A stretch of DNA of 43,903 nucleotides from Pelagibacteraceae bacterium AG-470-G21 (GTDB lineage Bacteria; Pseudomonadota; Alphaproteobacteria; Pelagibacterales; Pelagibacteraceae), in NCBI GenBank assembly GCA_003211555.1, contig QCSH01000008.1, forward strand, positions 1 to 43,903, written 5' to 3'. The first letter of the stretch is position 1. Every line of letters starts with the position of its first letter. Made by a program: the position numbers and the translations under genes. Shown here piece after piece: positions 8,906 to 43,832 of the stretch. The notes beneath the pieces are model-generated. The model saw nothing but the letters and a program-made list of their open reading frames with translations. It had not been told where the DNA came from and made no database searches.

Positions 8906-8913
8906 AACTTTAG

Positions 8914-8947: not shown

Positions 8948-8949
8948 AA

Positions 8950-9111: not shown

Positions 9112-9119
9112 TTAATTTT

Positions 9120-10684: not shown

Positions 10685-10686
10685 TT

Positions 10687-25987: not shown

Positions 25988-26007
25988 GCGCGCAAATTAT
26001 CCTTTCT

Positions 26008-27880: not shown

Positions 27881-28528
27881 ATGATAAAAAAAATTAAACC
27901 AACGCTTTCTGAAAAAATATTATTTGTTTTTCTAATTTTGCTTTTAATTTTTACTTTAGGATCATTTTATATATTAAATAATAAGTGTCTTTTTGTTAAA
28001 AAAATTGATTTAGACAATATTAATTATAAAGACAAAAAAAATATTGCAATTATGGAAGTTGAATGTGGTAAAGTTTTAATAGAGTTAAACCCTAATATTT
28101 CACCAAAAGCCGTAAACCGATTTAAGAAGTTAATAAATAAAGGTTCCTATAATGGTTCAGCTTTTTACCGTGTAATTGAGGATACTTTGATACAAGCAGG
28201 AGATATAGAATATGGAAATATTTCTAATCTAAATTATTCTAAAGTAGGAACTGGTAAATCTGATTTGGGAATGATTAAATCCGAACTTAGTAATAGTTTT
28301 TTATTTAATGCTGGTTCTGTAGCTTTTGCTAGAAAAGATAAGTTCGATACAGAGGATAGTGAATTTTTTATTACATTGATAGATATACCTATATATCAAG
28401 GTGAATATACTCCTATTGGAATGGTAATTGCTGGTATGGACGCTTTAAGAAAAATTAAAGTGGGAAATAAATCAACTTATGTATTAAAACCTGATTATAT
28501 TAAAAGTTTAAAATTATTAGTTAACTAA
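27881..28528 (+). CDS. Membrane-anchored cyclophilin-type peptidyl-prolyl isomerase
   Basis: A 215-residue protein with a hydrophobic anchor (LFVFLILLLIFTLGSFYIL, about 15-33) followed by a cyclophilin domain. Recognisable pieces are ISPKAVNRFKKLINKGSYNG, AFYRVIEDTLIQAGD and SVAFARKDKFDTEDSEFFITL, corresponding to the FHRVI, QGGD and SQFFI signatures but diverged from them. The catalytic Arg of FxRV is kept. It would fold proteins on the periplasmic face. It starts on the base after the metallopeptidase stop. Its last four codons, including the stop, form a palindrome shared with the opposite gene. Confidence 0.75.
   Translation: MIKKIKPTLSEKILFVFLILLLIFTLGSFYILNNKCLFVKKIDLDNINYKDKKNIAIMEVECGKVLIELNPNISPKAVNRFKKLINKGSYNGSAFYRVIEDTLIQAGDIEYGNISNLNYSKVGTGKSDLGMIKSELSNSFLFNAGSVAFARKDKFDTEDSEFFITLIDIPIYQGEYTPIGMVIAGMDALRKIKVGNKSTYVLKPDYIKSLKLLVN
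28517..28528. other. 12-bp palindrome encoding both C-termini and stops
   Basis: TTAGTTAACTAA is a perfect palindrome. Read on either strand in the gene's frame it encodes Leu-Val-Asn-stop, so the cyclophilin and the FadN-like protein end with the same three residues from the same 12 base pairs. Confidence 0.95.
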
Positions 28529-30739
28529 TGGTTTTCCAGTAGATAATGTATGTTTAATTCTTTCTTGAGTTTTGGTCGTCTCAATTAACTTCATAAAAGC
28601 ATCCAACTCTAATTTAAACAACTGATCTTCTGTAAGGGTTTTATCTATTGTTGTATCTCCACCACTTAACACATTTGCTAGTTCTGTTCCAACTATCATT
28701 CCGTGGTCTAATATTATTTTATCGTTGTATAGTTTTTCTAACATACCAACCATTTTGTCTTTTAAAGGTTTGCCAGATAAATTAAATGTACATTCTTTTG
28801 GAATATTAAATTCTTTATTTTCATTCAAAATTTTTCTTGCTTCACTTAGTAAACTATTTCTACTCATAATTTTCTTATTTTCGGGTATTAAATACATGAG
28901 GGGTTCAGCTTCTATTGGTGATGTTGCGGTTTTTGCGTAACCAATAATATCAAAAACTTTTAAAGGTGCAAAATCTGGATCATTTTTTGCTTCATCGGTT
29001 TGAGACCATCTCCATAACATCTCTTTACACCCTCCTCCAGCTGGAACTAAACCAACCAATGTTTCAACAAGTCCAACAACAATATTTGTATGTGAAGCAA
29101 CAAAGTTACTTTGAACTAATACTTCAAAACCTCCCCCGAGTGTAAGACCTGACGGTGCTGAAACAACAGGAAATTTAGAGTATTTTAAGTGTTTACAGGT
29201 TTCTTGGAAATATCTGACAAATTTTTCAATAGACTTAAAGTCACCTTTATCTGCAAAATTCATAGTATAAGTTAAATTAACACCAGCAGAAAACTGCATG
29301 CTTTCATTAATAATTATCAATGGTTTATCTGTAGCATTTTTTAAAGAGTCCATTGAGTCGTAATCTAAAGCGTTTGCTTTAGTTGTAAATTCAACAATAT
29401 TAAATTCAGGAAATCTATAAATTTCAGCTGATTTATTTTTATCAAGTTTTAGAGCTCTTGATTTTATTTTGCCTAGTGTTTGAATTTCAGTATATTGTTG
29501 TCTCTCACCATAAAAGTTTTCATTTTTAGACTTTGATAAATTTTCTAAAAATATATTTCCTTCAAAATTGTCAATTTTCTCAAAAAAATTATTTACTCCA
29601 ATTTCTTTCAGCATTTCGAAAGGTCCTCTTGACCAATTGAAACCAAGTCTCATTGCCTCATCAATATCGTTAAACTTATCTGTAATACCTGGAACTAGAG
29701 AAGATGAATATTTTATTATTTTAGAAATTACTGACCATGCGTAATCACCATATTTATCTCCACGATTTATTAATTTCTGTAGATCAACTTTTTCAGATTT
29801 AATATCTATTTTTTTTGATGGAGCATATTCTCCAGTTTCAAGATTAATGGCTTCTAAAATTTTCTTACCGCCATCTTTATTCATTCTGTAAAATCCACCT
29901 TTTCCTTTTCGCCCGGTATAACCAGTTTCTATTAATTTTTTTACAAGTGGCATTTCTTTTGCAACAGGTTGAAATGGATCACTCTCTGGTAATTCTTTAA
30001 TAAAACTTTTTAAAACATCGGCCATAAGATCAATACCAATTAAATCGTACAAACCAAAAACTCCTGTTTTTGGTATTCCCATTGGTCTGCCAAAAACAGC
30101 GTCGGCTTCTTCTACGCTTAACTTCATGTTAAAAGCTTCTGTCATTGCAATTTGCATAGCATAAACGCCAATTCTATTTCCTAAAAAACCTGGGGTATCA
30201 TTGCAGATAATCGCTCCTTTACCCATTTCTATTTCACAAAAACTTTTTAAAAGTTTAACTTTATCTAAGTCGCTATCTTTACTTTTTACAATTTCTAACA
30301 AATCCATATACCTAACTGGATTAAAGAAGTGAGTAATACAAAAGTCTTTTTTATCTTCAGTAGATAATTTTTCAGACAAAACACTTATAGGTATTGAAGA
30401 TGTATTGGAGCTTACAACAGACTCTTTTTTTCTATTTTTAAAAATTTTCTCATATATATTATGTTTGATGTCAATTCTTTCTACAACTGCTTCTACAATC
30501 CAGTCTGCTTTTGATACAACATCAAAATTATCTTCAATATTTCCAACAAGAATATTATTTAATTTCGACTTATCAATTAAAAGAGGTGGTCTTGATTTGC
30601 CTATTCTCTCTTTAGCTTTCTGGCTAATTTCAGTTGTTAGATCTAGTAATGTCACTGGAATATTAGCATTACATAAATGAGCAGCAATACCACTACCCAT
30701 TGTTCCTGAACCAATCACAACTACATTGTTTATTTTCAT
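28517..30739 (-). CDS. FadN-type 3-hydroxyacyl-CoA dehydrogenase / enoyl-CoA hydratase fusion
   Basis: A 740-residue two-function beta-oxidation enzyme. The N-terminal half is a 3-hydroxyacyl-CoA dehydrogenase: NAD site VVVIGSGTMGSGIAAHL (7-22), catalytic His137 in THFFNPVRYMDLLEIV, C-terminal HAD domain with GRKGKGGFYR. From about residue 430 there is a crotonase domain, with FSAGVNL as oxyanion hole and GLVETLVGLVPAGGG as the acid/base region. The domain order (dehydrogenase first) is that of FadN, opposite to E. coli FadB. It lies 53 bases after the ABC ATPase gene on the same strand, so it may be the last gene of the dpp operon. The frameshifted thiolase at 42707 could complete the cycle. 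Confidence 0.85.
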   Translation of the reverse strand: MKINNVVVIGSGTMGSGIAAHLCNANIPVTLLDLTTEISQKAKERIGKSRPPLLIDKSKLNNILVGNIEDNFDVVSKADWIVEAVVERIDIKHNIYEKIFKNRKKESVVSSNTSSIPISVLSEKLSTEDKKDFCITHFFNPVRYMDLLEIVKSKDSDLDKVKLLKSFCEIEMGKGAIICNDTPGFLGNRIGVYAMQIAMTEAFNMKLSVEEADAVFGRPMGIPKTGVFGLYDLIGIDLMADVLKSFIKELPESDPFQPVAKEMPLVKKLIETGYTGRKGKGGFYRMNKDGGKKILEAINLETGEYAPSKKIDIKSEKVDLQKLINRGDKYGDYAWSVISKIIKYSSSLVPGITDKFNDIDEAMRLGFNWSRGPFEMLKEIGVNNFFEKIDNFEGNIFLENLSKSKNENFYGERQQYTEIQTLGKIKSRALKLDKNKSAEIYRFPEFNIVEFTTKANALDYDSMDSLKNATDKPLIIINESMQFSAGVNLTYTMNFADKGDFKSIEKFVRYFQETCKHLKYSKFPVVSAPSGLTLGGGFEVLVQSNFVASHTNIVVGLVETLVGLVPAGGGCKEMLWRWSQTDEAKNDPDFAPLKVFDIIGYAKTATSPIEAEPLMYLIPENKKIMSRNSLLSEARKILNENKEFNIPKECTFNLSGKPLKDKMVGMLEKLYNDKIILDHGMIVGTELANVLSGGDTTIDKTLTEDQLFKLELDAFMKLIETTKTQERIKHTLSTGKPLVN

Positions 30740-30792: not shown

Positions 30793-32823
30793 TCATACAT
30801 TCTGTAAATTTTTCAATTCGTTTATTTTTATATGACATCTGATAGCATTTCCATTCTCACCTATCTGCCAGGGAGGGACCTCTTTGTTACATATGTCTCC
30901 AAGTTTTCTTGGACATCTTCCCTGAAAAGAACAGCCTTTTTCTGGTGGTTTTTCCTCCACTATATCTTCTGCGACTAATTTAGGCTTTATGTCTGGGTCT
31001 GGTTCTAGAACTGCTCCCAACAATACTTCAGTATATGGATGGGATGGGTAGTTGTAAACATTTTGTGATGGGCCTATTTCACATAATCTTCCTTGGTAAA
31101 GAACTGCAACTCTATCACTTATAGCTCTAACAACTGCTAAATCATGAGATACAAAAATGTATGTTGTTCCTAAATCTTCTTTAAGCTTTTGGAGTAAATT
31201 TAATACTGCAGCCTGAACGGAGACATCCAATGCAGATGTAACTTCATCGCATAAAATTATATCTGGTTTTGCTGCAAACGCTCTTGCAACAGCAACTCGT
31301 TGTTTTTCCCCACCAGATAATTGTCTTGGATATCGTGACATGTAGAATTCACCTAATCTAACCTTTTTTAAAAGATCGATTATATTTTTCTTCAATTCAT
31401 TACCTGTCAAATTAAAATAAAGTTTAAGTGGTTGGGTTAAAATCTGCTCAACCGTATGATTGGGGTTTAAAGACTCATCTGGATTTTGAAATATTAATTG
31501 TATTGCTCTAAGATCATTTGGATCTCTCAGCTTCAAATCAGAAGATAAAATACGTTCATTAATAAATTTTATCTGACCATCTTTAGTTTTTAATAGCCCA
31601 GCAATTGATTTAAGTATTGTAGATTTACCACTACCCGACTCACCAACCAATGCAATAGTTTCTCCTTTATTAATATCTAAATTTATGTCTTTAACAGTTG
31701 GGTTTTCATCAGAAATTTTATTTAATAATTGATCAAAAAATTTTTGCTTAGCATAAGTGATCGAAACATCTTTTAAATTTAAAACATTATTATTTTTCTG
31801 AACAGTATCCTTTCTAGTAATAGTAGAGTGATGTAATTTATTTTCTTGTATTAGATCCTTATGATTAAAACATCTCACACTTGTATCTAAATTGTTCAAA
31901 TATTCTAATTCTGGAGAGTTATTCTTACATTTATCGCTAGCAAGATTGCATCTTTCATAAAAACTACAACCATCACTAATACTCCCAGGTTGAGGTTGGC
32001 TTCCAGGCATTGAATCAGGCAAACCTGTAAGGGATAGTTTTGGAATAGATTTTAATAAACCAAATGTATAAGGATGAATTGGTTCTTTTAATATTTTCCT
32101 TGCTGGTCCTTCTAAAACTATTTCCCCTGCGTACATTACAACTATTCTATCACTTACTTGGGCGATAGCTCCAAGGTCATGACTAACATAAATCATCGAC
32201 GTTCCAGTATCTTTTGCAATAAATCTTAAGAGTTCTAACACGTGGGCCTGGGTTGTTACATCAAGACCTGTTGTAGGTTCGTCTAATAAAAGCAAGTCTG
32301 GTTTCCCAGCTAAAGCCATTGCTACAGCAACTCTTTGTTGTTGGCCTCCAGATAGTTCGTGTGGATAACGAAATGCCATTGTCTCTGGTGATGGCAATCT
32401 AACTTTATTTAATAATTCAGAAATTTTATTATCTCTCTCATTTTTATTTAAATCAGTATGTAATTTAAGTGCTTCATCTATTTGATATCCAATTTTTAAA
32501 TTTGGCGTAAGTGCCTGACCTGCATTTTGAGGTATCATCGCAATCTTTCTGCCTCTAATTTTTTCCAACTGACGACTATTCATCTTTAACAAGTCTTCAG
32601 ATTTAAAAATACACTCTCCTTCAAGAGCAAATAGCCCTTGTTTTATATAGCCCATCATAGCTAAAGCTAAGGTGCTTTTACCTGAACCAGACTCCCCTAC
32701 AATACCAACAGTTTCTCCTTTTTTTATATTAGTGGTTACATTTCTAAGAATAGAAATTTGTTTACCTGTTTGGCTATTAAATCCAATCGATAAATTTTTT
32801 ACACTTTCTATTATTTCATTCAT
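30793..32823 (-). CDS. Fused oligopeptide/dipeptide ABC transporter ATPase (DppD-DppF)
   Basis: A 676-residue protein with two full ABC ATPase domains. First: GESGSGKSTLALAMMG Walker A, LSGGQQQRVAVAMAL signature, LLLDEPTTGLD Walker B. Second: GESGSGKSTILKSIAG, LSGGEKQRVAVARAF, IILCDEVTSALD. Each half ends in the cysteine-containing oligopeptide-transporter tail (CSFYERCNLASDKC... and CSFQGRCPRKLGDIC...), which in this family can hold an Fe-S cluster. The fusion corresponds to separate DppD and DppF elsewhere. It begins on the base after the dppC stop. It powers import of the ligand bound by the protein encoded at 34761. Confidence 0.93.
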   Translation of the reverse strand: MNEIIESVKNLSIGFNSQTGKQISILRNVTTNIKKGETVGIVGESGSGKSTLALAMMGYIKQGLFALEGECIFKSEDLLKMNSRQLEKIRGRKIAMIPQNAGQALTPNLKIGYQIDEALKLHTDLNKNERDNKISELLNKVRLPSPETMAFRYPHELSGGQQQRVAVAMALAGKPDLLLLDEPTTGLDVTTQAHVLELLRFIAKDTGTSMIYVSHDLGAIAQVSDRIVVMYAGEIVLEGPARKILKEPIHPYTFGLLKSIPKLSLTGLPDSMPGSQPQPGSISDGCSFYERCNLASDKCKNNSPELEYLNNLDTSVRCFNHKDLIQENKLHHSTITRKDTVQKNNNVLNLKDVSITYAKQKFFDQLLNKISDENPTVKDINLDINKGETIALVGESGSGKSTILKSIAGLLKTKDGQIKFINERILSSDLKLRDPNDLRAIQLIFQNPDESLNPNHTVEQILTQPLKLYFNLTGNELKKNIIDLLKKVRLGEFYMSRYPRQLSGGEKQRVAVARAFAAKPDIILCDEVTSALDVSVQAAVLNLLQKLKEDLGTTYIFVSHDLAVVRAISDRVAVLYQGRLCEIGPSQNVYNYPSHPYTEVLLGAVLEPDPDIKPKLVAEDIVEEKPPEKGCSFQGRCPRKLGDICNKEVPPWQIGENGNAIRCHIKINELKNLQNV

Positions 32824-33717
32824 TTATACAGGTGCTTTAGTTGATCGATCAATTCCTAATGCCTTTGCAAATGCATCAGCAGTTAAATTGATGCCAATAA
32901 TTAAAGAGCTTAATCCTACAATTGGAGCTATTACTGACCAATATGCAAATGACATTAGTCCTCTCGCATTCGATATCATCAAACCCCAGTCTGGCGTTGG
33001 AGGGCTAACACCAAAACCCAAAAAAGATAATGAACTAAAACCTAATAACATCCATGACCATCTCATTGCCCCTTCAACTAATATTGCATCTCTAACATTT
33101 GGGATAATTTCATTCCATATAATAGACATATTACTATGACCTCTAGCTCTAGCTGAAACTATAAAATCTTTAGCAATAACATCATGTGTGGCTGCTCTTG
33201 CGACTCTAACAATTCCTTTACCATAAAAAAAACCTAGAGCAGGTATTAATACTTGGGTAGATGTTCCTAAAAGAGAAACAATTAACAACATTGCAAGTAT
33301 CCATGGAATTGATAGGAATGCATCTACAACTCTCATAACTACATCGTCAATTTTTCCTCCAACTAATCCACAAAAGATACCTAATAGACCTCCCCATAAA
33401 AGAGCAATTAGCGAACCAAAGAAAGTAACAGTAAGTGCAGTTCTGCCACCTAGTATGGTTCTTGTAAAAACATCTCTCCCCAAGCTATCTGTCCCAAACC
33501 AGTGTTCAGCTGAAGGTGCAAGCAGCATTGTATTTGGACTAATCGCTTTGTAATCATAAGGTGCAATATATGGACTCATTAATGCTAATAATATATGAAA
33601 TATAAGAATTGAAAGTCCAATAAAACCTGAAGGCTTTAAAGCCATAGTTTTTAAAATTTCTAAAACTTTTTCAAAGTTATTTTTTTGTTTATTATTTGTT
33701 GCTAAATCACTTTGCAT
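32824..33717 (-). CDS. ABC transporter permease, DppC type
   Basis: A 297-residue permease with a cytoplasmic N-terminus, a first span (FIGLSILIFHILLALMSPYIAP) and five more in the C-terminal half. HWFGTDSLGRDVFTRTILGGRTAL is the DppC/OppC signature, and SARARGHSNMSIIWNEIIPN is the EAA loop that contacts the ATPase. It is one base downstream of dppB. Substrate identity is not encoded here. Confidence 0.92.
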   Translation of the reverse strand: MQSDLATNNKQKNNFEKVLEILKTMALKPSGFIGLSILIFHILLALMSPYIAPYDYKAISPNTMLLAPSAEHWFGTDSLGRDVFTRTILGGRTALTVTFFGSLIALLWGGLLGIFCGLVGGKIDDVVMRVVDAFLSIPWILAMLLIVSLLGTSTQVLIPALGFFYGKGIVRVARAATHDVIAKDFIVSARARGHSNMSIIWNEIIPNVRDAILVEGAMRWSWMLLGFSSLSFLGFGVSPPTPDWGLMISNARGLMSFAYWSVIAPIVGLSSLIIGINLTADAFAKALGIDRSTKAPV

Positions 33718-33718
33718 A

Positions 33719-34675
33719 TTATTTTTTTATTTGTAAACTTTTTAGTCTTGGGTTGAGCATTAATGTCATTAAATCTGCAATTAAATTGATGCCAACATAG
33801 ATTGACGCAAGTATTATTGCTAACGCTTGAACAACTGGTAAATCTCTATTAGAAATAGATTCTATTACCAATCTTCCTAGTCCAGGGTAATTAAAAACAA
33901 CCTCAGTCACTACTACACCACCTAATAACCATGCTATAGTTAACGCCACAACATTTATTGCTGGTAATAATGCATTTGGTAAAACATGTCTGAAAACCAT
34001 TTTCCAATAAGGGACACCTTTTAAAATCGCCATTTGCACATAATCACTTGCCATTACTTGAATGACGCTTGAACGAACCATTCTTGCCATGTGTGCTGTC
34101 ATTATCATTGATATAGCAACAACAGGGAGAATAATGTTTGAAAGTAATTCATAAAATGTTGCATCAGATGGAATAATCACAATTCCAGGCAACCATCCAA
34201 GCCAAATAGCAACGATTAAAATCAACAATGTAGCACTAATAAATTCTGGAATAGTCATTGAAAATATTGTTATTGTTGAAATTATAATATCTGGAAGCTT
34301 ATCTCTCCAAAGAGCAGTGATAATCCCCAATACTATGGCTAGTGGAATTCCAATAAGTATTGAAACAGAGGCTAAAACTAGTGAATTTTTTACTCTAGGT
34401 CCAAGTACCTCATTTATAGGCATTTCTCCACTAAGAGAATATCCAAAATCACCTCTGACAACATTAGCAGCCCAATCTAAATACCTTTGATATGATGGAA
34501 TATCTAATCCAAGTCTTTTTATACATGCATCAAGAGCAGGGCCATATGCTTCTCTCTCTAAATAAGTAGTACAAGCGTCGCCTGGTAAAACTTCAACACC
34601 AACAAACGTAATTAATGAAACTATAAATAATGTGATAAGTCCTAGTCCAATTCTCTTTAAAATTAATAAAAGCAT
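33719..34675 (-). CDS. ABC transporter permease, DppB type
   Basis: A 318-residue permease with six predicted spans. LLLILKRIGLGLITLFIVSLITF is the first; GDFGYSLSGEMPINEVLGPRV is the DppB periplasmic signature; YVQMAILKGVPYWKMVFRHVLPNAL is the EAA loop. A YLEREAYGPALDACIKRLGLD insert takes the place of the usual periplasmic helix. It is separated from the binding protein gene by 85 bases holding a strong hairpin, which should lower its expression relative to the binding protein. Confidence 0.92.
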   Translation of the reverse strand: MLLLILKRIGLGLITLFIVSLITFVGVEVLPGDACTTYLEREAYGPALDACIKRLGLDIPSYQRYLDWAANVVRGDFGYSLSGEMPINEVLGPRVKNSLVLASVSILIGIPLAIVLGIITALWRDKLPDIIISTITIFSMTIPEFISATLLILIVAIWLGWLPGIVIIPSDATFYELLSNIILPVVAISMIMTAHMARMVRSSVIQVMASDYVQMAILKGVPYWKMVFRHVLPNALLPAINVVALTIAWLLGGVVVTEVVFNYPGLGRLVIESISNRDLPVVQALAIILASIYVGINLIADLMTLMLNPRLKSLQIKK

Positions 34676-34720
34676 AAGATTAACTAAAACTTTTTAACAA
34701 AAATCAATTAAATAGAAATA

Positions 34721-34752
34721 AAATAAAGGCCGCTTGTATGCGGCCTTTATTT
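34721..34752 (-). terminator. Intercistronic hairpin after the binding-protein gene
   Basis: A perfect 13-bp stem AAATAAAGGCCGC / GCGGCCTTTATTT with a 6-base loop. On the minus strand (the coding direction) it begins eight bases after the binding protein stop and runs into TTTATTTTATTTC, so it can act as a partial terminator or as 3' protection for the upstream message. DppB begins 45 bases further on with no clear promoter of its own. Confidence 0.8.
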
Positions 34753-34760
34753 AAATACTT

Positions 34761-36248
34761 TTAGTCAACTTTGACTTTGTGCCATTGTATAGAAAAGTGG
34801 TCTACAGCATCAAGATTTTTAACTTTTGATGATGTTACAACAAGTCTTGATACATGATATGGGATCATAGTTCCACTTTGTTCCCATAAAGTCATTTGAG
34901 CATTTTGATAAGCTTTCTTTCGTTTATTGAAATCTAACTCACTTCTAGCATCAGCTAAATTTTTATCAAAGTCAGAATTTTTGAAATAAGATTCATTCCA
35001 TTTTGCTCCACTGTGATATGCTTCATGCAAGATTGTATCTGCAGGTCTTTGATTCCAACGTGTCATTGAAACTGGTTTTTTCATCCAGACTTCATTCCAA
35101 TAACCTTTTGATGGAACCATTTCAATGTTAACTTTTATTCCTGCTTTAGCAACTTGTTGTTGAACTACTTCTGCAATTGTAGGCCAAGTTGGTTCTAATG
35201 TTGCAGGGTAAACTGTTAGTTCAACTCCGTTTGGATATCCCGCTTCTCTTAGTAGATTTTTTGCTTTACTAATATTTTGAGGACAATCCATATTTAAACG
35301 GTATTGATCTGATGGCATAACAGGAGTATCACAAGATACAGTGGCTGCACCACCCATTACTAAATCAACTAGTTCTTGTCTATCAACTGCTAACCTTACT
35401 GCTTTTCTTACTTTAGGATTATCAAACGGAGCAGTATCGGTTCTCATAACCATTCCTCTCCAGTTTCCTGTAGGAATTACAGTTGTTTTAAATTTAGAGT
35501 TACTATCAAAAATCTTCTTTTGATTGAAAGGAACATATCTGTTCATGTCAATCTGGCCAGTTAAAAGAGCTTGAATTCTAGCTTGGGCGTCTGGAATTGC
35601 AATTACATGTACTTCTGCTACTCCCGGTGCGCCTTCCCAATATTCTGGGTTAGCTTTAAGAATTGTCGTCCCCTCTGGGTCAAACTTATCAACCATGAAC
35701 GGTCCTGTTCCTACTCCAGTTTGACCTATAGTATCACCTGATCCTTCAGGTATCATTCTTAATCTGTAATCAGTTAATAATAATGGAAAATCTGCAAATG
35801 AAGTAGATAACTTCATTTTAACTGTATGTTGATTAACCACCTCAATATCTTCTACAACATTTAAACTTTTTCTTACCGGAGATCCAATATCTGGATCTTT
35901 TGCTCTCATTAAAGAATATTTTACATCAGGAGCATCAAATGCTGATCCATCATGGAAGTATATTCCTTTTCTTAAATTAAATGTCCACTCAGTTGCATCA
36001 GAATTTGCACTCCAATCAGTTGATAATGAAGGTGATGGAACACCATTCATATCAGGTCTAACTAATCGATTTTGTGTTTTGATGACAACTTGAAATAAAC
36101 GCCCTTTAGTTATGGCATCTAAGTTAGTATCTTTTCCAAACCCAAGATCATGTGACACTTTAAATACTCCACTTGATGCATTGGCAATAGAAAAAGATAA
36201 AATCAGAGACATAAATGTCGCTGAAAAAACTTTAAGTATGTATTTCAT
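34761..36248 (-). CDS. Family 5 extracellular solute-binding protein
   Basis: A 495-residue periplasmic protein with a signal peptide (MKYILKVFSATFMSLILSFSIANA). It has the family 5 (peptide/nickel/opine) landmarks: TEWTFNLRKGIYFHDGSAFDAPDVKYSL, a GTGPFMVDKFDPEGTTILKAN segment and, in the second lobe, AVRLAVDRQELVDLV and AKNLLREAGYPNG. The ligand is unknown; proteins of this family also bind non-peptide compounds such as opines, glutathione and amino-sugar conjugates. A GAGGGAA Shine-Dalgarno precedes the ATG. It is the first gene of the transport operon and is divergent from the GcvT-like gene, which hints that the imported compound may be a substrate of that cluster. Confidence 0.9.
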   Translation of the reverse strand: MKYILKVFSATFMSLILSFSIANASSGVFKVSHDLGFGKDTNLDAITKGRLFQVVIKTQNRLVRPDMNGVPSPSLSTDWSANSDATEWTFNLRKGIYFHDGSAFDAPDVKYSLMRAKDPDIGSPVRKSLNVVEDIEVVNQHTVKMKLSTSFADFPLLLTDYRLRMIPEGSGDTIGQTGVGTGPFMVDKFDPEGTTILKANPEYWEGAPGVAEVHVIAIPDAQARIQALLTGQIDMNRYVPFNQKKIFDSNSKFKTTVIPTGNWRGMVMRTDTAPFDNPKVRKAVRLAVDRQELVDLVMGGAATVSCDTPVMPSDQYRLNMDCPQNISKAKNLLREAGYPNGVELTVYPATLEPTWPTIAEVVQQQVAKAGIKVNIEMVPSKGYWNEVWMKKPVSMTRWNQRPADTILHEAYHSGAKWNESYFKNSDFDKNLADARSELDFNKRKKAYQNAQMTLWEQSGTMIPYHVSRLVVTSSKVKNLDAVDHFSIQWHKVKVD

Positions 36249-36388: not shown

Positions 36389-37615
36389 ATGCAAAACGAT
36401 TTAAACAAAGTCAGATTTTCGGTCAAACCTTTAAAAGTAAATAACAACAAAGTTGTTGAGCTTGCTAGAACTGTTGGGATACATCCATTAGCTTACCAAG
36501 AACTTCCTTATGATCCTGAGTATTCTTTTTATGCAGGAAGATTAAATCCTGAAGTATTATCAAATGCTTCTGCAGATGAAATGTACTGGAAAGTTCGGCA
36601 AGAAGTTATATTTCGTCATACTGGAGAACATCCTTATGAAATTTCAGGTCCAGATGCTGAAAAACTTTTACAAAAGATATTCACTCGAGACATTTCTAAA
36701 GTAAAAGTAGGAAGATGCTCTTATCAATTTGCTTGTTATAGTGATGGAGGGATGATTACAGATGGAGTTTTACTCAGACTCGAAGAAAACAAATTTTGGT
36801 TTGCACAAGCAGATGGTGATCTATTTTCGTGGTACAAGGCTCATTCTGATAATCTTAGAGTGAAAATATCCGATCCAGATGTTTGGGTTAGTCAAGTTCA
36901 AGGTCCAAATTCTATGAAGCTTCTAAAAATATTAACAAAAGAAACTTATCCTGAAAAATGGAAATATTTTGACTGGAAAGAAGTAACAATATTAAATGAA
37001 GAAGTAATTATAAGTAGATCTGGTTTTAGCAATGAACTTGGATGGGAAATTTATTTTAGAAAAAGTAATAATACTGAAAAAATTGGTGATTATATATTTG
37101 AGGAAGGAAAAAAAATGGGGATGATACTTACGGGTACGCCTGGTTTTAGATGTAAAAGAATTGAATCAGGATTGTTGTCAGCTGGTCAAGATTTTACATA
37201 TCACACAAATCCTTACGATGTAGGTTTAGGAAAATATGTTGATTTAAAAAAAAATTATTTTATTGGAAAATCAGCTTTAGAAACGGCCGATAAAGACAAA
37301 AGGTGCTGGGGAATAAGAGTAGAAAATGGAACGGCTTTAAAAGGATCTTATATAAAATTAAATAGTGAAATAATAGGTAAGGTTACTTCAAGTACCTGGT
37401 CTCCTTTTCAAAAATGTGGTGTTGGTATAGTTTTATTGAATAACACAAAACATAAGCCAGGAATAATTGTAGATGTTGATTGCAATGACAACAAGACTCA
37501 TAAAAGTGAAATATGTACGCTACCAATGTATGATTTTAAAAACGAAATTGTACGAGGTCTAAAAACTGATATTCCAAAAGGTCCTTCCCCGTGGTCAGGA
37601 ATAAAAAAAAAATAG
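36389..37615 (+). CDS. GcvT/DmdA-like folate-dependent demethylase or aminomethyltransferase
   Basis: A 408-residue member of the GcvT superfamily. Landmarks are FRHTGEHPYEISGPDAEKLLQKIFTRDISKVKVGRCSY (split here from the family's 'l.D.s....i.GpDa..fLq' block), GGMITDGVLLRL, VSQVQGPNSMKLL, SRSGFSNELGWEIYF and FRCKRIESGLLSAGQDF. These proteins transfer a methyl or methylene group to tetrahydrofolate. The long N-terminal arm (about 50 residues) and the phrase YDPEYSFYAGRLNP do not belong to glycine-cleavage GcvT, so a specialised demethylase is likely. It opens a seven-gene same-strand run and is divergent from a solute-binding protein gene. Substrate unknown. Confidence 0.75.
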   Translation: MQNDLNKVRFSVKPLKVNNNKVVELARTVGIHPLAYQELPYDPEYSFYAGRLNPEVLSNASADEMYWKVRQEVIFRHTGEHPYEISGPDAEKLLQKIFTRDISKVKVGRCSYQFACYSDGGMITDGVLLRLEENKFWFAQADGDLFSWYKAHSDNLRVKISDPDVWVSQVQGPNSMKLLKILTKETYPEKWKYFDWKEVTILNEEVIISRSGFSNELGWEIYFRKSNNTEKIGDYIFEEGKKMGMILTGTPGFRCKRIESGLLSAGQDFTYHTNPYDVGLGKYVDLKKNYFIGKSALETADKDKRCWGIRVENGTALKGSYIKLNSEIIGKVTSSTWSPFQKCGVGIVLLNNTKHKPGIIVDVDCNDNKTHKSEICTLPMYDFKNEIVRGLKTDIPKGPSPWSGIKKK

Positions 37616-38286
37616 TAGTAGTAGGTGGTGGTGGATTTACACATAAGTCTGACAAAGATTTAGACGATTTTGTATTAAATCAGGTTAATAAATCAGACAT
37701 AGAAATTGGTTTTTTACCCACAGCTAGTGATGATGATATTGAAAAAACTGATCTTTTTTACCAAAGATTTCAATCTAAGAATTTAAAATTATCTCATTTT
37801 AATCTTTGTTCAGGTGTAAATGGATTTGATGAATGGATATTAAAAAAAGATTTAATTTATATTGGCGGTGGCAACACATTCAAAATGATAGAGTTGTGGA
37901 AAAGATATAATCTTGTTGAAATATTTAAAAAAGCATACGAAAAAGGAATAATTTTAGGTGGCGTAAGTGCAGGTGGAGCTTGTTGGTTTGATTGGATACT
38001 GTCAGACTCTTTGAACAAAAGTTTAAGTCCCCTAAGAGGTATAAGTTTATTATCGGGTAGTTGTACCCCACATGCTTCGGATAATAATAGACTTGAGCAA
38101 TTTGTTATTGATATTAAAAATGAAAATTTACCTGAAGGATTAGCTATAGATGATGGTGTAGCTGTGCTTTTTATTGACGGAATACCTTCTGAGGTTTATT
38201 CTTCAAGAATTAATCATGATGCTTATTATGTAAACAAACATGATAAGTTTAGCTTAAAAACGCATATAAAAAATTTAAATGGATAA
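37591..38286 (+). CDS. Peptidase E (S51)-like protein
   Basis: A 231-residue S51-type protein: YIGGGNTFKMIELW, then GGVSAGGACWFDW with probable nucleophile Ser126, and a conserved SGSCTPHASDNNR with His161. Peptidase E cleaves Asp-X dipeptides; cyanophycinase is a relative. The only sensible start is GTG 37591, inside the end of the GcvT-like gene (25-base overlap), with AAAGG upstream. It ends inside the next gene's start (8-base overlap). Its position inside a catabolic run suggests that it may hydrolyse an amide or peptide-like precursor of the pathway substrate; this is inference. Confidence 0.75.
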   Translation: MVRNKKKIVVVGGGGFTHKSDKDLDDFVLNQVNKSDIEIGFLPTASDDDIEKTDLFYQRFQSKNLKLSHFNLCSGVNGFDEWILKKDLIYIGGGNTFKMIELWKRYNLVEIFKKAYEKGIILGGVSAGGACWFDWILSDSLNKSLSPLRGISLLSGSCTPHASDNNRLEQFVIDIKNENLPEGLAIDDGVAVLFIDGIPSEVYSSRINHDAYYVNKHDKFSLKTHIKNLNG

Positions 38287-39439
38287 AATTACAGCAAGTA
38301 AAAAAATTTTTAGCATTGAGGATGCCAAGAAGCTATCAAGAAAAAGACTGCCTAAATTAGTCTACGATTTTATAGATGGTGCATCTGGTGATGAAAAATT
38401 ATCTGAAATAAACAGTAATGCTCTAGATCAAATACGATTAGAACCTAGAGTTTTAAGAAATGTTGAAGAAAGAAAATTAAAAAAAAGTATTCTAGGATTT
38501 GATTATGATTATCCTTTTGGATTTGCTCCCATGGGAATGACAAATCTCTCATGGCCAGGTGCTGACTCTATGTTAGCAAAAGAAAGTGCAAGAAATAATA
38601 TACCAACATGTGTATCAATGGCGTCGACGACTACTCTAGAAAAAATGTATGAACTTTCAGAAGGTCATTCATGGTTACAGCTTTATATTTTTCAAGACGA
38701 AAGTTTTGTAATGGAGCTACTTGAAAGAGCTGAAAAAACTGGTTATGAGGTTGCTATTCTTACTGTCGATGTTCCAGTTTTATCAAGAAGAACAAGAGAT
38801 GATAAGAATGGTTTTTCATATCCTTTTAAAATTGGGCCTAAACAATTTTTTGATTTTGCAACCCACCCTCTTTGGTCAATTTCAACATTACTGAAAGGAA
38901 TACCAAAACCAATGAACTATGTAACATCAAAAAGTGGAAGTGGTATTTTTAAGAGAAAAGAAAGTAGAGGCAAAACAGATTGGGAAACTTTAAAAAGAGT
39001 TAGAAATAAATGGAAGGGTAAGTTAATCATTAAAGGAGTAATGTCTTCGGATGATGCTGTTAAAATTAAAGAAATGGGTGCTGATGCAATTCAAGTTTCA
39101 AATCACGGAGGTAGACAGCTAGATAGTGCATCTGCAGCAATAAATATTTTACCATTTATTAGAGAAGCTGTAGGAAATAGTTTTCCTATTATATTTGATA
39201 GTGGAATAAGAAGTGGAAGTGATATTGTGAGATCATTAGCCTTGGGTGCAGATTTTTCAATGATTGGAAGACCTGTTATGTATGCAATGGGTGCTGATGG
39301 TGCAAATGGATTGAGAAGAATAGTTGATATAATTAAAGAAGAAACCAGTACAACGCTAGGATTGGTTGGATTAAACGATATTAATGAAGTTTCTTCTGAT
39401 ATAATTGAGCAGAAACTTTTTATGAATACAACTTATTAA
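38279..39439 (+). CDS. FMN-dependent alpha-hydroxy-acid dehydrogenase (lactate/mandelate/glycolate type)
   Basis: A 386-residue flavin enzyme of the LldD/glycolate oxidase family. LPKLVYDFIDGASGDE, FGFAPMGMTNLSWPGAD, LQLYIFQDESF and LTVDVPVLSRRTRDDKNGF are in order; the active-site VSNHGGRQLD supplies the catalytic His and the Arg that holds the carboxylate; FDSGIRSGSDIVRSLALGA binds the FMN phosphate. The enzyme oxidises an L-2-hydroxy acid to a 2-oxo acid. Immediately downstream, one base away, is a ThDP enzyme of the type that acts on 2-oxo acids. Whether the substrate is lactate, glycolate, mandelate or a methylated hydroxy acid cannot be read from the sequence. Confidence 0.9.
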   Translation: MDKITASKKIFSIEDAKKLSRKRLPKLVYDFIDGASGDEKLSEINSNALDQIRLEPRVLRNVEERKLKKSILGFDYDYPFGFAPMGMTNLSWPGADSMLAKESARNNIPTCVSMASTTTLEKMYELSEGHSWLQLYIFQDESFVMELLERAEKTGYEVAILTVDVPVLSRRTRDDKNGFSYPFKIGPKQFFDFATHPLWSISTLLKGIPKPMNYVTSKSGSGIFKRKESRGKTDWETLKRVRNKWKGKLIIKGVMSSDDAVKIKEMGADAIQVSNHGGRQLDSASAAINILPFIREAVGNSFPIIFDSGIRSGSDIVRSLALGADFSMIGRPVMYAMGADGANGLRRIVDIIKEETSTTLGLVGLNDINEVSSDIIEQKLFMNTTY

Positions 39440-39440
39440 A

Positions 39441-41180
39441 ATGGAAAAAAAAATTAGAGGTGGAGCATTAATAGCAAGAGCTTTAAAAGATAAAGGTATT
39501 GATAAAGTTTTTACTTTATCTGGTGGATTTTGTAACCCTGCAATAGAAGGTTTCATGGAATGCCAAATAGATGTTATTAACTGTCCTCATGAGCAAATAG
39601 CTGGGCACTTTGCTGATGGTCATACAAGGATTACAAGGAAACCATCTGTATGTTTGGTTGGCCCAGAAGGATTTGCAAATGCAGTTCCATCGATGATGGA
39701 GGCTTGGGGGGAAAGAACACCAATAATTTATATCACTGGATCAAGTAGTTTAAAAAGACAAGGCTCAGGTGGCTTTAAAGAAATCGATGATGTTGCAATA
39801 GCAGCTCCTCTTACAAAATATAGCGCAAGTATTACTGATGGAACAAGAATTAGAGAATTTGTGGACAAAGCTTACAGAATTGCAACAAATGGATATCCAG
39901 GTGCTGTGCATTTAAGTTTACCAGTTGACATAATGTTTTCCTCTTTTGAGGAAAACGCAGGACTCGAAGAAAGGCCATTTTCACATAAGCCAAAACCAAT
40001 TTTAAAAGCTTGGCCAGATCCCACTGATCTTTCAAAAATATTAGAGCTAGCACGCACTGCAAAAAAACCTGTTATTATTGGTGGACATGGGGTTTGGTGG
40101 TCTAAATCTGAGAAAAACTTAGAAGCTGCAGGAAAAAATTTATTGATACCCATATTTAATGTTCCTTATCATCAAAAACTTCTTGGTGAAGAAGTGGATG
40201 CGTATATGGGCTTAGCAGATATACATCAATATCCTCCTTCAGAGTTTGCGTTGCATAATTCTGATTTAGTATTAATGATTGGAGCAAGATTAGATAACCA
40301 AATGAATTTTGGTAATCCTCCCTTTATACCAAAAACGACAACCTTAGTTTGTATTAATGGTTCTCATGAAGAGGTTGAATTTAATAGAGCTGCAGATCAC
40401 AATCTCTTATGTGATCCAGGAGTTTTTTTAGATACTTTGAGTAATTTAAAAAAGAACAACAAATGGTTTTTAGGAAATGCATGGTTTGATGAAAATAAAA
40501 ACAAAAAAAATAGTTGGGTAGAAAAATACTTAAACGATCTAAAAGTTGAAGCTGAAGCAACAAAAAAAAATGGTGGCAAAATTCACCCATTACAACTTGC
40601 TTTAGATGTTCAAAGTGTAATGGATGAAAAAGATTGGCTGGTTATTGATGGTGGTAATACACATTTTTGGTCAGAGATAGCTATAAACTTGGCAGGAGCT
40701 CAAGGTAAAAAGTTAGGTGGAATTTTACATCCAGGTACATTTAGTATGCTTGGAGTTGGAGTATCTTTTGCTTTATCAGCAAAAAATAATAATCCAAATT
40801 CAAATGTAGTTTTAATTAGTGGAGACGGTGCTTTTTTGTCTGGAGGCATGTCAATAGAAACGGCATTTTTTGAAAAAAAACCCATTGTTGTGGTAATTGA
40901 TAATAATGGTGGATTAGCATCAATTGGTCAACAACAAGAAAGATTATTTGAAAGTGGAAAAAGAGTAGCAACCGATTTTAGAGATATTCCTTTTCATACA
41001 ATATTTGAGGGCTTTGGAGGTTTTGGAGAATTAGTAACTAAAAGAGAAGAATTGGGCCCCGCTTTGAAAAGAGCCATTGCAAGTGGTAAAACTGCGTGTG
41101 TTAATGTGAAAGCTAAACCAGTATTAAGTCCAATTGTTGCGGCAGTTGCTAGTAAAAGAGAGAAATCATCAATAGAATAA
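39441..41180 (+). CDS. Thiamine-diphosphate enzyme (acetolactate synthase-like; 2-oxo-acid decarboxylase/lyase)
   Basis: A 579-residue ThDP enzyme with the three usual domains. Pyr domain: FTLSGGFCNPAIEG and NCPHEQIAGHFADG, with activating Glu51, which rules out glyoxylate carboligase (that enzyme has Val here). Central domain: RTAKKPVIIGGHGVWWS. PP domain: VLISGDGAFLSGGMSIETA followed by VVVIDNNGG, the GDG...NN magnesium-ThDP motif. The family includes acetolactate synthase, benzoylformate decarboxylase, oxalyl-CoA decarboxylase and sulfoacetaldehyde acetyltransferase. No small regulatory subunit lies nearby, so a catabolic role is more likely than valine biosynthesis. The FMN dehydrogenase just before it could supply the 2-oxo-acid substrate. 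Confidence 0.88.
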   Translation: MEKKIRGGALIARALKDKGIDKVFTLSGGFCNPAIEGFMECQIDVINCPHEQIAGHFADGHTRITRKPSVCLVGPEGFANAVPSMMEAWGERTPIIYITGSSSLKRQGSGGFKEIDDVAIAAPLTKYSASITDGTRIREFVDKAYRIATNGYPGAVHLSLPVDIMFSSFEENAGLEERPFSHKPKPILKAWPDPTDLSKILELARTAKKPVIIGGHGVWWSKSEKNLEAAGKNLLIPIFNVPYHQKLLGEEVDAYMGLADIHQYPPSEFALHNSDLVLMIGARLDNQMNFGNPPFIPKTTTLVCINGSHEEVEFNRAADHNLLCDPGVFLDTLSNLKKNNKWFLGNAWFDENKNKKNSWVEKYLNDLKVEAEATKKNGGKIHPLQLALDVQSVMDEKDWLVIDGGNTHFWSEIAINLAGAQGKKLGGILHPGTFSMLGVGVSFALSAKNNNPNSNVVLISGDGAFLSGGMSIETAFFEKKPIVVVIDNNGGLASIGQQQERLFESGKRVATDFRDIPFHTIFEGFGGFGELVTKREELGPALKRAIASGKTACVNVKAKPVLSPIVAAVASKREKSSIE

Positions 41181-41516
41181 ATGGCAAAATTTTCCTCACA
41201 TATACTTAATGGTTCAGATGGAAGTCATGCCAGCAACATCAAAATAAAAATTTATCAGATAATTTCATCTAAATCAAAAAAACTTTTTTTGAATACAAAG
41301 ACAGACATAAATGGTAGAATAAACGAAATTTTTAATCTTAGTAAAAAAGATTGTAAATGTAATTATGAAATGGTTTGTGAGATAGGAGAATACTTTAAAA
41401 AGAAAAGGGTTGTTAGTGAAATAGTTATAAAATTTAAAATGATAAATAATAAAAGAAATTACCATCTGCCTATTATAATTTCTCCGAACAGCTATACAGT
41501 TTGGTGGTCTAAATAA
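41181..41516 (+). CDS. Transthyretin/5-hydroxyisourate hydrolase-like protein with altered C-terminus
   Basis: A 111-residue protein of the transthyretin-like fold. FSSHILNGSDGS keeps the first active-site His (H7), KTDINGRINE keeps the Arg (R46), and NYHLPIIISPNSY keeps the second His (H95). The C-terminal YRGS tetrapeptide that defines 5-hydroxyisourate hydrolase is missing; the chain ends with TVWWSK. There is no uricase, OHCU decarboxylase or allantoin gene nearby. It begins on the base after the ThDP gene and ends three bases before the DmdA-like gene. A hydrolase of another cyclic or lactone-like intermediate is a reasonable guess. The name HIUase should not be transferred without test. 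Confidence 0.72.
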   Translation: MAKFSSHILNGSDGSHASNIKIKIYQIISSKSKKLFLNTKTDINGRINEIFNLSKKDCKCNYEMVCEIGEYFKKKRVVSEIVIKFKMINNKRNYHLPIIISPNSYTVWWSK

Positions 41517-41519
41517 ATT

Positions 41520-42683
41520 ATGGCTTCTTTAGTTCATAGTAAAATTAAGACTAAACTAAATATGTCTAGAAGAATTAGAAGAACCCCTTATACAAAAAGA
41601 GTTGAAGAGTGTGGTGTTACTGATTTTACAGTTGTGAATCATATGCTTTTGCCCAAGGGATTTCAAAAATCTGTTGAAGATGATTATTGGCATTTAAATG
41701 AATACGTTCAATTGTGGGATGTTTCATGTCAAAGACAAGTTCAAATTTCGGGACCTGATGCAAGTTTATTAGTTCAAAAAATGACACCAAGATCATTAAA
41801 AAATATGGAAACAGGTAAATGCTTTTATATACCGATGATTGATGAAAATGCTGGAATGATTAATGACCCAGTTTTATTAAAATTAGATGATGATATGTTT
41901 TGGATTTCAATTGCAGACTCAGATATACTGTTGTGGGCAAAAGGTATTGCGGTAGGTTTAAACTTAAATGTTAATATAAAAGAACCAGATGTATATCCAC
42001 TTGCTGTTCAAGGACCTAAGGCTGAAGATTTAATGGCTTCAATATTTGGCGAAGATATCAGGAAATTGAAATTTTTTAATTTTAAAGTATTTGATTTTTT
42101 GGGAACTAAACAGATAATCGCAAGATCAGGTTATAGCAATCAAGATGGTTTTGAAATTTATTTTAAATGCTTTGAAGAATATTTTGATAAAAATGAAATG
42201 GGAGAAAAAATCTGGGATATAATATGGAAAGCTGGGAAAGAATTTAATATAGCACCAGGATGTCCAAATTTAATTGATAGAATTGAAGCGGGTCTCTTAT
42301 CCTATGGAAATGATTTTACTAAAGACAACAATCCATTTGAATGTAATTTGGAAAAATACTGTAAAAAAGAGTCAGAACACGACTATATTGGTAAGAAGGC
42401 ATTAAAAAAAATAAAAATAAACGGTGTTCAACAAAGATTGAAAGGTATTATGTTTGAGGGAAATAATTGTCCGCCATGCTCAATACCTTTTCCAGTTTAT
42501 TCAAAAAATAAAAAAATAATTGGTAAAGTTACCTCAGGTATCTATTCACCAAAATTCAAAAAAAATATTGGATTATCTATGATTTTAAATGAGTTTTGTG
42601 AAACAGGAACTGAAGTTATAGTTCACACTCCAGACAGCAAGCTTAGAAAAGGTATTGTGTCTTCTTTACCATTTAAAAAATAA
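41520..42683 (+). CDS. DmdA-like demethylase (GcvT superfamily)
   Basis: A 387-residue protein that resembles dimethylsulfoniopropionate demethylase more than glycine-cleavage GcvT: SRRIRRTPYTKRVEECGV, NHMLLPKGF, VQLWDVSCQRQVQISGPDA, GMINDPVLLKL, FWISIADSDILLW, PLAVQGPKAEDLMASIFG, IARSGYSNQDGFEIYF, GCPNLIDRIEAGLLSYGND. DmdA transfers a methyl from DMSP to tetrahydrofolate. SAR11 carries several diverged relatives whose substrates are unknown, so dmdA is likely but not secure. The ATG at 41520 is used; an internal ATG at 41562 (MSRRIRR) is a possible alternative start. It is 22 bases upstream of a thiolase. Confidence 0.78.
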   Translation: MASLVHSKIKTKLNMSRRIRRTPYTKRVEECGVTDFTVVNHMLLPKGFQKSVEDDYWHLNEYVQLWDVSCQRQVQISGPDASLLVQKMTPRSLKNMETGKCFYIPMIDENAGMINDPVLLKLDDDMFWISIADSDILLWAKGIAVGLNLNVNIKEPDVYPLAVQGPKAEDLMASIFGEDIRKLKFFNFKVFDFLGTKQIIARSGYSNQDGFEIYFKCFEEYFDKNEMGEKIWDIIWKAGKEFNIAPGCPNLIDRIEAGLLSYGNDFTKDNNPFECNLEKYCKKESEHDYIGKKALKKIKINGVQQRLKGIMFEGNNCPPCSIPFPVYSKNKKIIGKVTSGIYSPKFKKNIGLSMILNEFCETGTEVIVHTPDSKLRKGIVSSLPFKK

Positions 42684-42706
42684 TAATTAATAGGTATAAA
42701 ATATTT

Positions 42707-43832
42707 ATGAATAAAGCGGTTATTGCAGGATATTCAAGATCCCCTTTTACAATGGCAAGAAAAGGAGCACTAATTGATGTCAAGCCAGTAAATATGTTTG
42801 CTGAGGTAGTAAAGAGCTTAATTTCAAAATCAAAAATTAATCCAGCTGATATTGAAGATATTGTTGTTGGATGTGCTTTTCAAGTTGGAGAGCAAAGTTT
42901 TAATATTGGTAAACTTACAACTTTTTTATCTGGTATGGAGATACATACTTCAGGTATGACTGTTGATAGATGGTGTGGTTCATCAATGGAGGCTATACAT
43001 GTAGCTGTAGGAAAAATAGCTATGGGAGCAGGAAAAGCATTTGTTTGCGGAGGTGTTGAAAGTATGACAAGAGTGACAACTGGTTTTGAGCCTATACCCT
43101 ATCCGTACACAGAAAAAGAAAATCCAAATGTTTATTTTTCAATGGGAATCACTGCAGAAAATATTGCCAAAAGATATAATATTTCTAGAACAGAACAGCA
43201 AGAGTTTGCAATTCAAAGCCATCAAAAAGCAAATAATGCTCAACTTAATGGCAAATTTAAAAATGAAATTGTTGCAATTTCTGGATGTGCTGAAGATGGA
43301 AATATTCGTCCTAAAAGTAGTCAAGAAACTTTAGATGGATTAAAACTTGCGTTTGATCAAGAAGGAACTGTCACAGCAGCAACATCATCACCACTTACAG
43401 ATGGAGCAGCTGCAACTCTAATATGTGAAGAAAATTTTGCTAAAGAAAATAATTTAGATATTTTAGGTAGAATTATTGCAACAGGAGTTAAAGGATGTGA
43501 GCCGGATGTAATGGGGCTTGGACCAATTGGGGCAACAAAAAAAAGCATTAGAAAGAGCAAATTTATCAATTAATGATATTGATATAGTTGAAATTAACGA
43601 AGCGTTCGCATCTCAGTCAATTGCATGCGTTAAAGATCTTGGTATTGACCAAAATAAAATAAACTTAGATGGTGGTGCATTAGCATTAGGTCATCCACTC
43701 GGTGCTACAGGGGCAAGAATTACTGGGAAAGCTGCCGATTTACTTAGACGTGAAGATAAAAAATATGCTCTATCTACTCAATGTATAGGCTTGGGAATGG
43801 GTATAGCAACTATTATAGAATCAGTTAATTAA
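42707..43832 (+). CDS. Acetyl-CoA acyltransferase (thiolase), reading frame interrupted at an A8 tract
   Basis: The first frame (42707-43573) encodes the N-terminal thiolase half: [13 protein letters not shown] with nucleophilic Cys90, [21 protein letters not shown] and [10 protein letters not shown]. It then runs into an out-of-frame tail. The second frame continues with [36 protein letters not shown] (catalytic His) and QCIGLGMG (second catalytic Cys). Eight A residues stand at 43537-43544; seven would restore one 374-residue protein reading [11 protein letters not shown]. This is either a base-call error, a recent mutation or transcript slippage at the A-tract. Thiolases cleave or make 3-ketoacyl-CoA; this one could work with the FadN-type enzyme. 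Confidence 0.85.

Follow-up and report, generated by a model that had tools for sequence, protein, structure and literature searches.

A conserved and apparently mobile gene set of marine bacteria that probably breaks down a methylated compound

We describe here a gene set of marine bacteria built around four neighbouring genes, which encode an enzyme dependent on flavin mononucleotide (FMN), an enzyme dependent on thiamine diphosphate (ThDP), a small hydrolase of the transthyretin (TTR) fold and a protein resembling DmdA, the demethylase of dimethylsulfoniopropionate (DMSP). The set lies in Pelagibacteraceae bacterium AG-470-G21 (GenBank assembly GCA_003211555.1), a SAR11 genome of 1.11 Mb that is 84% complete; the window is the whole stretch analysed, the 43,903 nucleotides of its contig C8 (QCSH01000008.1). 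We read six forward-strand genes of this window, together with a divergent SBP5-Opp transporter operon, as one island inserted between a FadB-like gene and a thiolase gene. Judging from the families of the predicted enzymes, the island probably breaks down a methylated compound. The gene set is conserved and apparently mobile among marine bacteria. We found no description of it in the open-access literature, which omits most subscription papers, and the one paper listed for a DmdA-like gene cluster (PMC10746254, on SAR92) contained no match for the DmdA residue terms.

The island and its host flanks

Three genes, those for the ThDP enzyme, a first GcvT/DmdA-like protein (gcvT1) and the SBP5 solute-binding protein, each occur in 10 of 147 Pelagibacteraceae genomes, and the ten genomes are identical for all three. 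When completeness of 90% or more and contamination of 5% or less are required, the carriers number 8 of 53. The island, its open reading frames (ORFs) and the two flanking genes are as follows.

36389..37615, + strand: GcvT/DmdA-like protein 1 (gcvT1), tetrahydrofolate-type methyltransferase (Pfam GCV_T, 141.6 bits)
37591..38286, + strand: Peptidase S51-family hydrolase with a GVSAG nucleophile motif (Pfam S51, 110.1 bits)
38279..39439, + strand: FMN-dependent 2-hydroxy-acid dehydrogenase family enzyme (Pfam FMN_dh, 396.2 bits)
39441..41180, + strand: ThDP enzyme of the oxalyl-CoA decarboxylase / 2-hydroxyacyl-CoA lyase / acetolactate synthase group (Pfam, NCBIfam)
41181..41516, + strand: small hydrolase of the TTR/5-hydroxyisourate hydrolase (HIUase) fold, with a W-containing tail instead of YRGS (Pfam PF00576, 71.7 bits)
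41520..42683, + strand: DmdA-like protein 2, cassette clade with Y32V and A39K (NCBIfam DmdA, 537.8 bits)
30793..36248, - strand: SBP5-Opp transporter operon, divergent, part of the island (ORFs)
34761-36248, - strand: SBP5 solute-binding protein (Pfam)
33719-34675, - strand: OppB (Opp name from sequence likeness only)
32824-33717, - strand: OppC (Opp name from sequence likeness only)
30793-32823, - strand: OppDF-type ATPase (Opp name from sequence likeness only)
42707..43832 (ORFs 42707-43573 and 43518-43832), + strand: thiolase, frameshifted; host flank gene outside the island
28517..30739, - strand: FadB-like 3-hydroxyacyl-CoA dehydrogenase/crotonase; host gene of the other flank (Pfam, NCBIfam)

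The original prediction, made from the letters of this DNA, had taken seven same-strand genes, the thiolase included, for one pathway beside a divergent solute-binding protein operon. All of its coordinates were reproduced, with overlaps of 25 and 8 bases and gaps of 1, 0, 3 and 23 along the run; Pfam bore out each family assignment, and the ORFs together with the SBP5 domain confirmed the divergent operon. As to the single pathway, six genes and the transporter are indeed inherited together, with ThDP, gcvT1 and SBP5 in the same 10 of 147 genomes, but the thiolase lies outside.

The FadB-like gene is present in 77 of the 147 Pelagibacteraceae genomes and the thiolase in 13. In the island-free genomes G063 and G088 the two genes are divergent and about 105 bp apart (measured between tblastn ends), and the pair has the same outer neighbours as in island carriers. 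Because they stand side by side without the island, we take the thiolase for a host gene and not for a pathway member. Both genes, which only flank the island, were rejected as parts of the pathway on these grounds, and the final thiolysis step that had been suggested is not supported. The thiolase is present in G063, G069 and G088, all of which have no ThDP gene; in G069 the contig ends at the thiolase (L192), so an empty site is not readable there. The G+C content of the island (32.7%) is near that of the rest of the window (31.4%) and thus gives no sign of a recent arrival.

A core kept across bacterial classes

The order FMN-ThDP-TTR-DmdA recurs in SAR11, in SAR116-like and Rhodobacteraceae-like genomes (inferred labels for the G357 and the G814 family, respectively), in Hyphomicrobiales and in Gammaproteobacteria. 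The TTR gene directly follows the ThDP gene at 94 of 94 loci (66 SAR11, 28 other), the DmdA-like gene directly follows the TTR gene at 89 of 90 (SAR11 62/62; other 27/28), and the FMN gene stands just before the ThDP gene at 86 of 90 (SAR11 63/63; other 23/27). These counts cover the loci with enough flank, 28 rows being from outside SAR11 and many rows being near relatives; 3, 7 and 6 of the 69 SAR11 rows were too short for the TTR, DmdA and FMN counts, as was one other row (L130) for the FMN count, and L019-L023 were excluded as contig copies. The ThDP enzyme is found in 22 of 61 genomes of the G357 family and in 12 of 248 of the G814 family, and the 28 rows include 11 of the former and all 12 of the latter. 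In the gene-neighbourhood survey that the original prediction had called for, the core is therefore kept across classes; scattered and unlinked genes in relatives, named there as the contrary outcome, are not what we found for the core.

Short peptides taken from the ThDP enzyme, used to scan genomes, gave 67 loci, 64 of them in Pelagibacteraceae, one in a metagenome-assembled genome (MAG) of Hyphomicrobiales and two in MAGs of Gammaproteobacteria. The enzyme is 71% identical in the Hyphomicrobiales MAG and 71% and 65% identical in the gammaproteobacterial ones; identities among orthologues overall are 62-94%. The TTR profile, at E 1e-25 or better, matched 2 of 398 genomes of the phylum (the window genome and G814), both with the core. 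Among plasmid records 19 had a ThDP match at E 1e-40, the best of them with 30.2% identity, so that there is no ThDP orthologue among these records.

SBP5 lies inside the fetched locus in 10 of the 28 non-SAR11 loci and S51 in 11 of 28. Ldh_2, a second and unrelated family of 2-hydroxy-acid dehydrogenases, is found near the core in L129, L130, L182, L166 and L168; the first three are close relatives, and the Pfam assignment is shown for L129. When unlabelled neighbouring ORFs of at least 110 aa were clustered, every family was confined to three loci or fewer. L175 carries at 8900-10967 a ThDP-TTR pair with neither an FMN nor a DmdA-like gene, and this pair is perhaps the true minimum.

The DmdA-like enzyme of the core

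DmdA-like protein 2 scores 537.8 bits with the NCBIfam model of DMSP demethylase (NF009133), above its cut-off of 410, and four other DmdA-like enzymes of the cassette reach 535.7-633.9 bits; the two unlinked DmdA proteins that were scored are at 538 and 566.6 bits. The cassette enzyme is about 50% identical to SAR11 DmdA and shares with DmdA (P. ubique 3TFH) the GCV_T and GCV_T_C domains and the RIE and GFEIY segments. It differs in its operon partners (FMN, ThDP and TTR), in its phylogenetic position and in two residues. A tree built from 43 rows places all 15 cassette rows in a single clade (support 100/99) that is separate from the 27 unlinked DmdA; gcvT1 was included and sits on a very long branch, while L095, L099 and L128 (copies or near-copies) and L005 (a distant paralogue) had been dropped. 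The position of Y32 in 3TFH is V in 15/15 cassette rows and Y in 27/27 unlinked rows, and that of A39 is K in 15/15 versus A, T, S or G in 27/27. Both positions would line the DMSP site. The position of W197 is Tyr in 18/18 linked rows, and W in 17 and Y in 10 of the 27 unlinked ones. We equate this residue with W171 in the alignment of PMC7487153, a Trp that the accessible part of that paper names as key for DMSP binding. The change W197Y was rejected as proof of a non-DMSP substrate, since both residues occur in unlinked DmdA.

In a search of the class, the window and the four most similar other loci (59-66%) among the best 30 have the core; the remaining 25 (46-56%) have no TTR or ThDP gene in flanks of at most 1.5 kb. 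The window genome also has a canonical-type DmdA (L008, 538 bits) beside an acyl-CoA ligase-like ORF (by eye). In the SAR116-like G357 the cassette gene is above the DmdA cut-off, and two other members, with 383 and 371 bits, are below it; these other members are those listed at E 1e-70 or better, and scoring covered 5 of the 12 first-look candidates. Clade, residues and partners together suggest that the cassette enzyme, though it passes the DMSP-demethylase model, may have another role.

The SAR116-like cassette protein of L128 (10317-11432) scores 633.9 bits versus 538 for the canonical-type SAR11 DmdA, so the two clades are not told apart by the NCBI DmdA model. A further GcvT-family protein of the window genome (L005, 1051-2406) adjoins a MetF-like ORF (by eye), and because of this neighbour we take it for the SAR11_1265 type, following the accessible part of PMC3160333.

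Predicted enzymes beside DmdA

A C-terminal YRGS is the signature of HIUases. The TTR-like protein shares with these enzymes the fold, H7, G45-R46 and Y94-H95 (H7, R46 and H95 being kept in all eight aligned rows); its AlphaFold2 model has a pLDDT of 91.5, and the best Foldseek match is the HIUase 8uw4 (E 2.2e-10). However, YRGS is absent from all 36 tails inspected, which without exception carry a Trp in that place, and the protein stays at 71.7 bits with the NCBIfam HIUase model TIGR02962, below the cut-off of 87.45. No purine-pathway gene was noticed among the neighbours viewed. Since the YRGS tail is missing, the substrate is likely to differ from 5-hydroxyisourate.

The FMN enzyme has its nearest PDB entries in L-lactate oxidase and mandelate dehydrogenase. 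It shares with LldD and mandelate dehydrogenase the FMN_dh domain and the NHGGR catalytic motif, which is present in 27 of the 32 best matches (the other five were not inspected), but it is below the cut-offs for LldD and lactate oxidase and has other gene partners. In the ThDP enzyme the three TPP domains, the catalytic Glu (PHEQ, 36/36) and GDG-NN (33/36 by our own pattern) are common to oxalyl-CoA decarboxylase, 2-hydroxyacyl-CoA lyase and acetolactate synthase. It is nevertheless distant from them and has a conserved C-terminal tail of its own, with SIE as the final residues in 36/36. Its scores with the oxalyl-CoA decarboxylase and 2-hydroxyacyl-CoA lyase models are 200.4 against a cut-off of 557 and 236.6 against 600, and no NCBIfam cut-off was reached among the matches listed (25 of 51 rows). 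The S51 hydrolases keep the G.SAG motif in 20/20; for the FMN and S51 proteins of the window, too, the NCBIfam matches listed are all under their cut-offs.

Two proposed kinds of first demethylase

gcvT1 scores 201.2 bits with the NCBIfam DmdA model, below the cut-off of 410. Among 31 non-SAR11 stretches its only orthologue is in L127 of G306 (63% identity), where the gene run also includes a homocysteine S-methyltransferase; this search covered the locus stretches. L128 has instead an MttB-family protein between S51 and a LysR regulator, with 386.2 bits for Pfam PF06253 and 329.2 for the pyrrolysine-type model TIGR02369, whose cut-off of 525 is not reached. Of the 28 non-SAR11 loci, 10 have MttB within the stretch fetched. 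Whole genomes were searched for MttB and the corrinoid module PF02607 in 23 carriers, namely 18 SAR116-like or Rhodobacteraceae-like genomes, four SAR11 genomes and G306. The L128 MttB found a match in 16 of the 18, with at least 48% identity in 14, and PF02607 was found in 15 of the 18; in the four SAR11 carriers and G306, MttB and PF02607 were each found in 0 of 5. SAR11 bacteria are not known to have corrinoid enzymes, and the informative part is therefore that gcvT1 accompanies the core in SAR11. This pattern suggests that in SAR11 a corrinoid-dependent demethylase has been replaced by the non-homologous, folate-dependent gcvT1.

The arrangement recalls the glycine betaine demethylation system MtgB/MtgC of Ruegeria pomeroyi, as far as it is described in the accessible part of PMC12478193, in that most carriers other than SAR11 and G306 have an MttB-family protein and a corrinoid module. 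It differs in that the MttB of the carriers often comes with S51 and the FMN-ThDP-TTR-DmdA core, and in that the SAR11 carriers tested have no match. The same part of that paper reports no MtgC in Pelagibacteraceae, in keeping with the proposed replacement.

Proposed pathway and alternatives

We put at an even chance that the island is a mobile catabolic one whose substrate is a methylated onium compound (a quaternary ammonium or a sulfonium compound) that contains a 2-hydroxy acid or gives rise to one. Import of the compound would be by SBP5-Opp, and elsewhere also by a tripartite ATP-independent periplasmic (TRAP) transporter, and the S51 hydrolase may release it if it arrives as an amide or ester-like conjugate. 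In SAR11, gcvT1 would remove one activated methyl, a task that MttB and a corrinoid protein would carry out in the majority of SAR116-like and Rhodobacteraceae-like carriers; in G306 the homocysteine methyltransferase perhaps also takes it. The FMN enzyme would then oxidise the 2-hydroxy acid, the ThDP enzyme decarboxylate or cleave the 2-oxo acid, the TTR-fold enzyme hydrolyse a cyclic or ester intermediate, and the DmdA-like enzyme transfer a methyl to tetrahydrofolate. Somewhat short of even, in our judgement, is the chance that this is a new aerobic marine pathway with a TTR-fold hydrolase outside purine metabolism, a DmdA-family enzyme on a non-DMSP substrate (for example a hydroxy acid with a quaternary ammonium group, released from some larger conjugate), a spread by gene transfer, and B12- or folate-dependent first demethylases swapped by lineage.

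Several points weigh against this proposal. Its weakest part is that there are two demethylations. The MttB relatives that are known take quaternary amines as substrates, whereas DmdA takes a sulfonium, and a DmdA-type enzyme that stands alone would call for a sulfonium or some other activated methyl. Such an enzyme is not expected to demethylate the neutral amine that MttB would leave behind, and as yet the pair of reactions does not fit one simple molecule. Either the molecule has two activated groups or two entry compounds join at the 2-hydroxy acid, which the joint occurrence of SBP5 and TRAP transporters in L166, L182 and L183 would fit. TTR and S51 have no firmly assigned step. L081, L083, L172 and L175 have no adjacent FMN gene, L175 also has no DmdA-like gene, and it is possible that G063 and G088 lost the island instead of its having been inserted in the carriers. 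The absence of MttB from SAR11 is expected, given that no corrinoid enzymes are known there, and MttB is not obligatory, as G907 and G1167 have no match. Five of the 14 close MttBs (in G814, G936, G974, G1157 and G1100) are on contigs without the core, and these genomes often have further MttB paralogues at 36-41%. PF02607 is no proof of MtgC, since ordinary methionine synthases of the control genomes contain it as well; the 943-aa ORF of G1167 that has it may be one, and G935, G1072 and G1157 have no PF02607 despite their MttB.

Another candidate substrate is 4-dimethylsulfonio-2-hydroxybutyrate (DMSHB), an intermediate of DMSP synthesis. The DmdA-like enzyme would make 4-methylthio-2-hydroxybutyrate from it, the FMN enzyme the 2-oxo acid and the ThDP enzyme methional or a derivative. 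It suits this scheme that the closest known relative of DmdA-like protein 2 is a sulfonium demethylase, that both FMN and Ldh_2 enzymes fit a 2-hydroxy acid, and that in L171 a pyridoxal phosphate (PLP) enzyme of Cys/Met metabolism (below the cut-offs among the matches listed) follows the DmdA-like gene after about 30 bp. We still hold it unlikely: TTR and S51 are left without a role, quaternary amines are the known substrates of MttB-type enzymes, and a molecule of this small size would be an unusual cargo for SBP5-Opp. A betaine-lipid head group (DGCC) and mycosporines were considered as further ideas for the substrate. The same low credence as to DMSHB goes to an ordinary DMSP demethylase that stands in a catabolic operon by chance. 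The five cassette enzymes do score like the two unlinked DmdA, and Y for W197 occurs in unlinked DmdA too, but their clade is separate, Y32V and A39K are found in 15/15 rows versus 0/27, the window genome already has a canonical-type DmdA, and FMN, ThDP and TTR match no DmdBCD step.

The TTR fold, with its conserved residues and HIUases as the best structural matches, could also point to an N-methylated heterocycle or cyclic amide, whose ring TTR would open and whose N-methyls GcvT or MttB would remove. HutF above its cut-off downstream in L174, divergent ureohydrolases in L165 and L171 and a hydantoinase-like ORF (by eye) near the core of L171 would agree with this. These neighbours are not common to most loci, however, the ureohydrolase belongs to the host region in SAR11, since it also flanks an island-free site, and FMN and ThDP are left unexplained, which makes this substrate distinctly improbable. 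That there is no single pathway, and that unrelated catabolic genes are grouped in a variable region, might be argued from accessory neighbours that differ widely between loci. For the core this is contradicted by the ThDP-TTR-DmdA order in 89/90 loci of two proteobacterial classes and by three genes sharing the same 10/147 genomes, and we regard it as very improbable indeed.

Meaning for surveys of dmdA

Ocean bacteria are classed as demethylating DMSP, rather than releasing dimethyl sulfide, by the presence of dmdA. From the accessible parts of the respective papers, SAR116 strains have dmdA and hence join DMSP demethylation (PMC4304780), IMCC1322 is listed as a holder (PMC5015088), and dmdABC extends across the SAR116 clade except subclade Ib.III (PMC12262181); in contrast to these, PMC8547437 detected dmdA only in the LGC2 group. 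Should the substrate of the cassette enzyme be a different one, inferences based on dmdA weaken, and at least part of the SAR116 dmdA counts would not be DMSP demethylase. SAR11, SAR116 and roseobacters would then have in common a way of using a methylated compound that has gone unrecognised.

Neighbouring genes

Accessory neighbours of the core (HutF, hydantoinase-like, 5-oxoprolinase-like, Cys/Met PLP enzyme and BKACE-like) were not adopted as a clue to the substrate because each is found in one or few loci. Directly after the DmdA-like gene of L172 (6000-7837), with gaps below 20 bp, lie a BKACE-like (by eye) and a HAD-like gene (weak tblastn). In L174 (4765-6126) a formimidoylglutamate deiminase above the HutF cut-off lies downstream on the same strand, with one ORF between it and the core. 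The ureohydrolase and aldehyde dehydrogenase genes of the window (24554-26961) were likewise not adopted, as they also flank the island-free site L190.

The thiolase of the window is split into two overlapping ORFs by a frameshift at eight consecutive A (43518-43573), either a sequencing error or a young mutation. It is free of internal stops in 12 of the 13 family genomes that have it, the window genome being the sole exception, and in L028 it is intact with 374 aa. Beside the thiolase, L028 (14393-20853) carries DoeA-like and EutA-like genes (best NCBIfam rows, under cut-offs) with a pot-type ABC transporter (by eye), which as a side reading may be a separate host operon for ectoine-type catabolism. 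In the SAR11 genome G043 (L137, 2018-10678) carnitine-dehydrogenase-like, BKACE-like and gamma-butyrobetaine-dioxygenase-like genes (NCBIfam, under cut-offs) form a quaternary-amine neighbourhood on the far side of the pot/DoeA/EutA-like genes.

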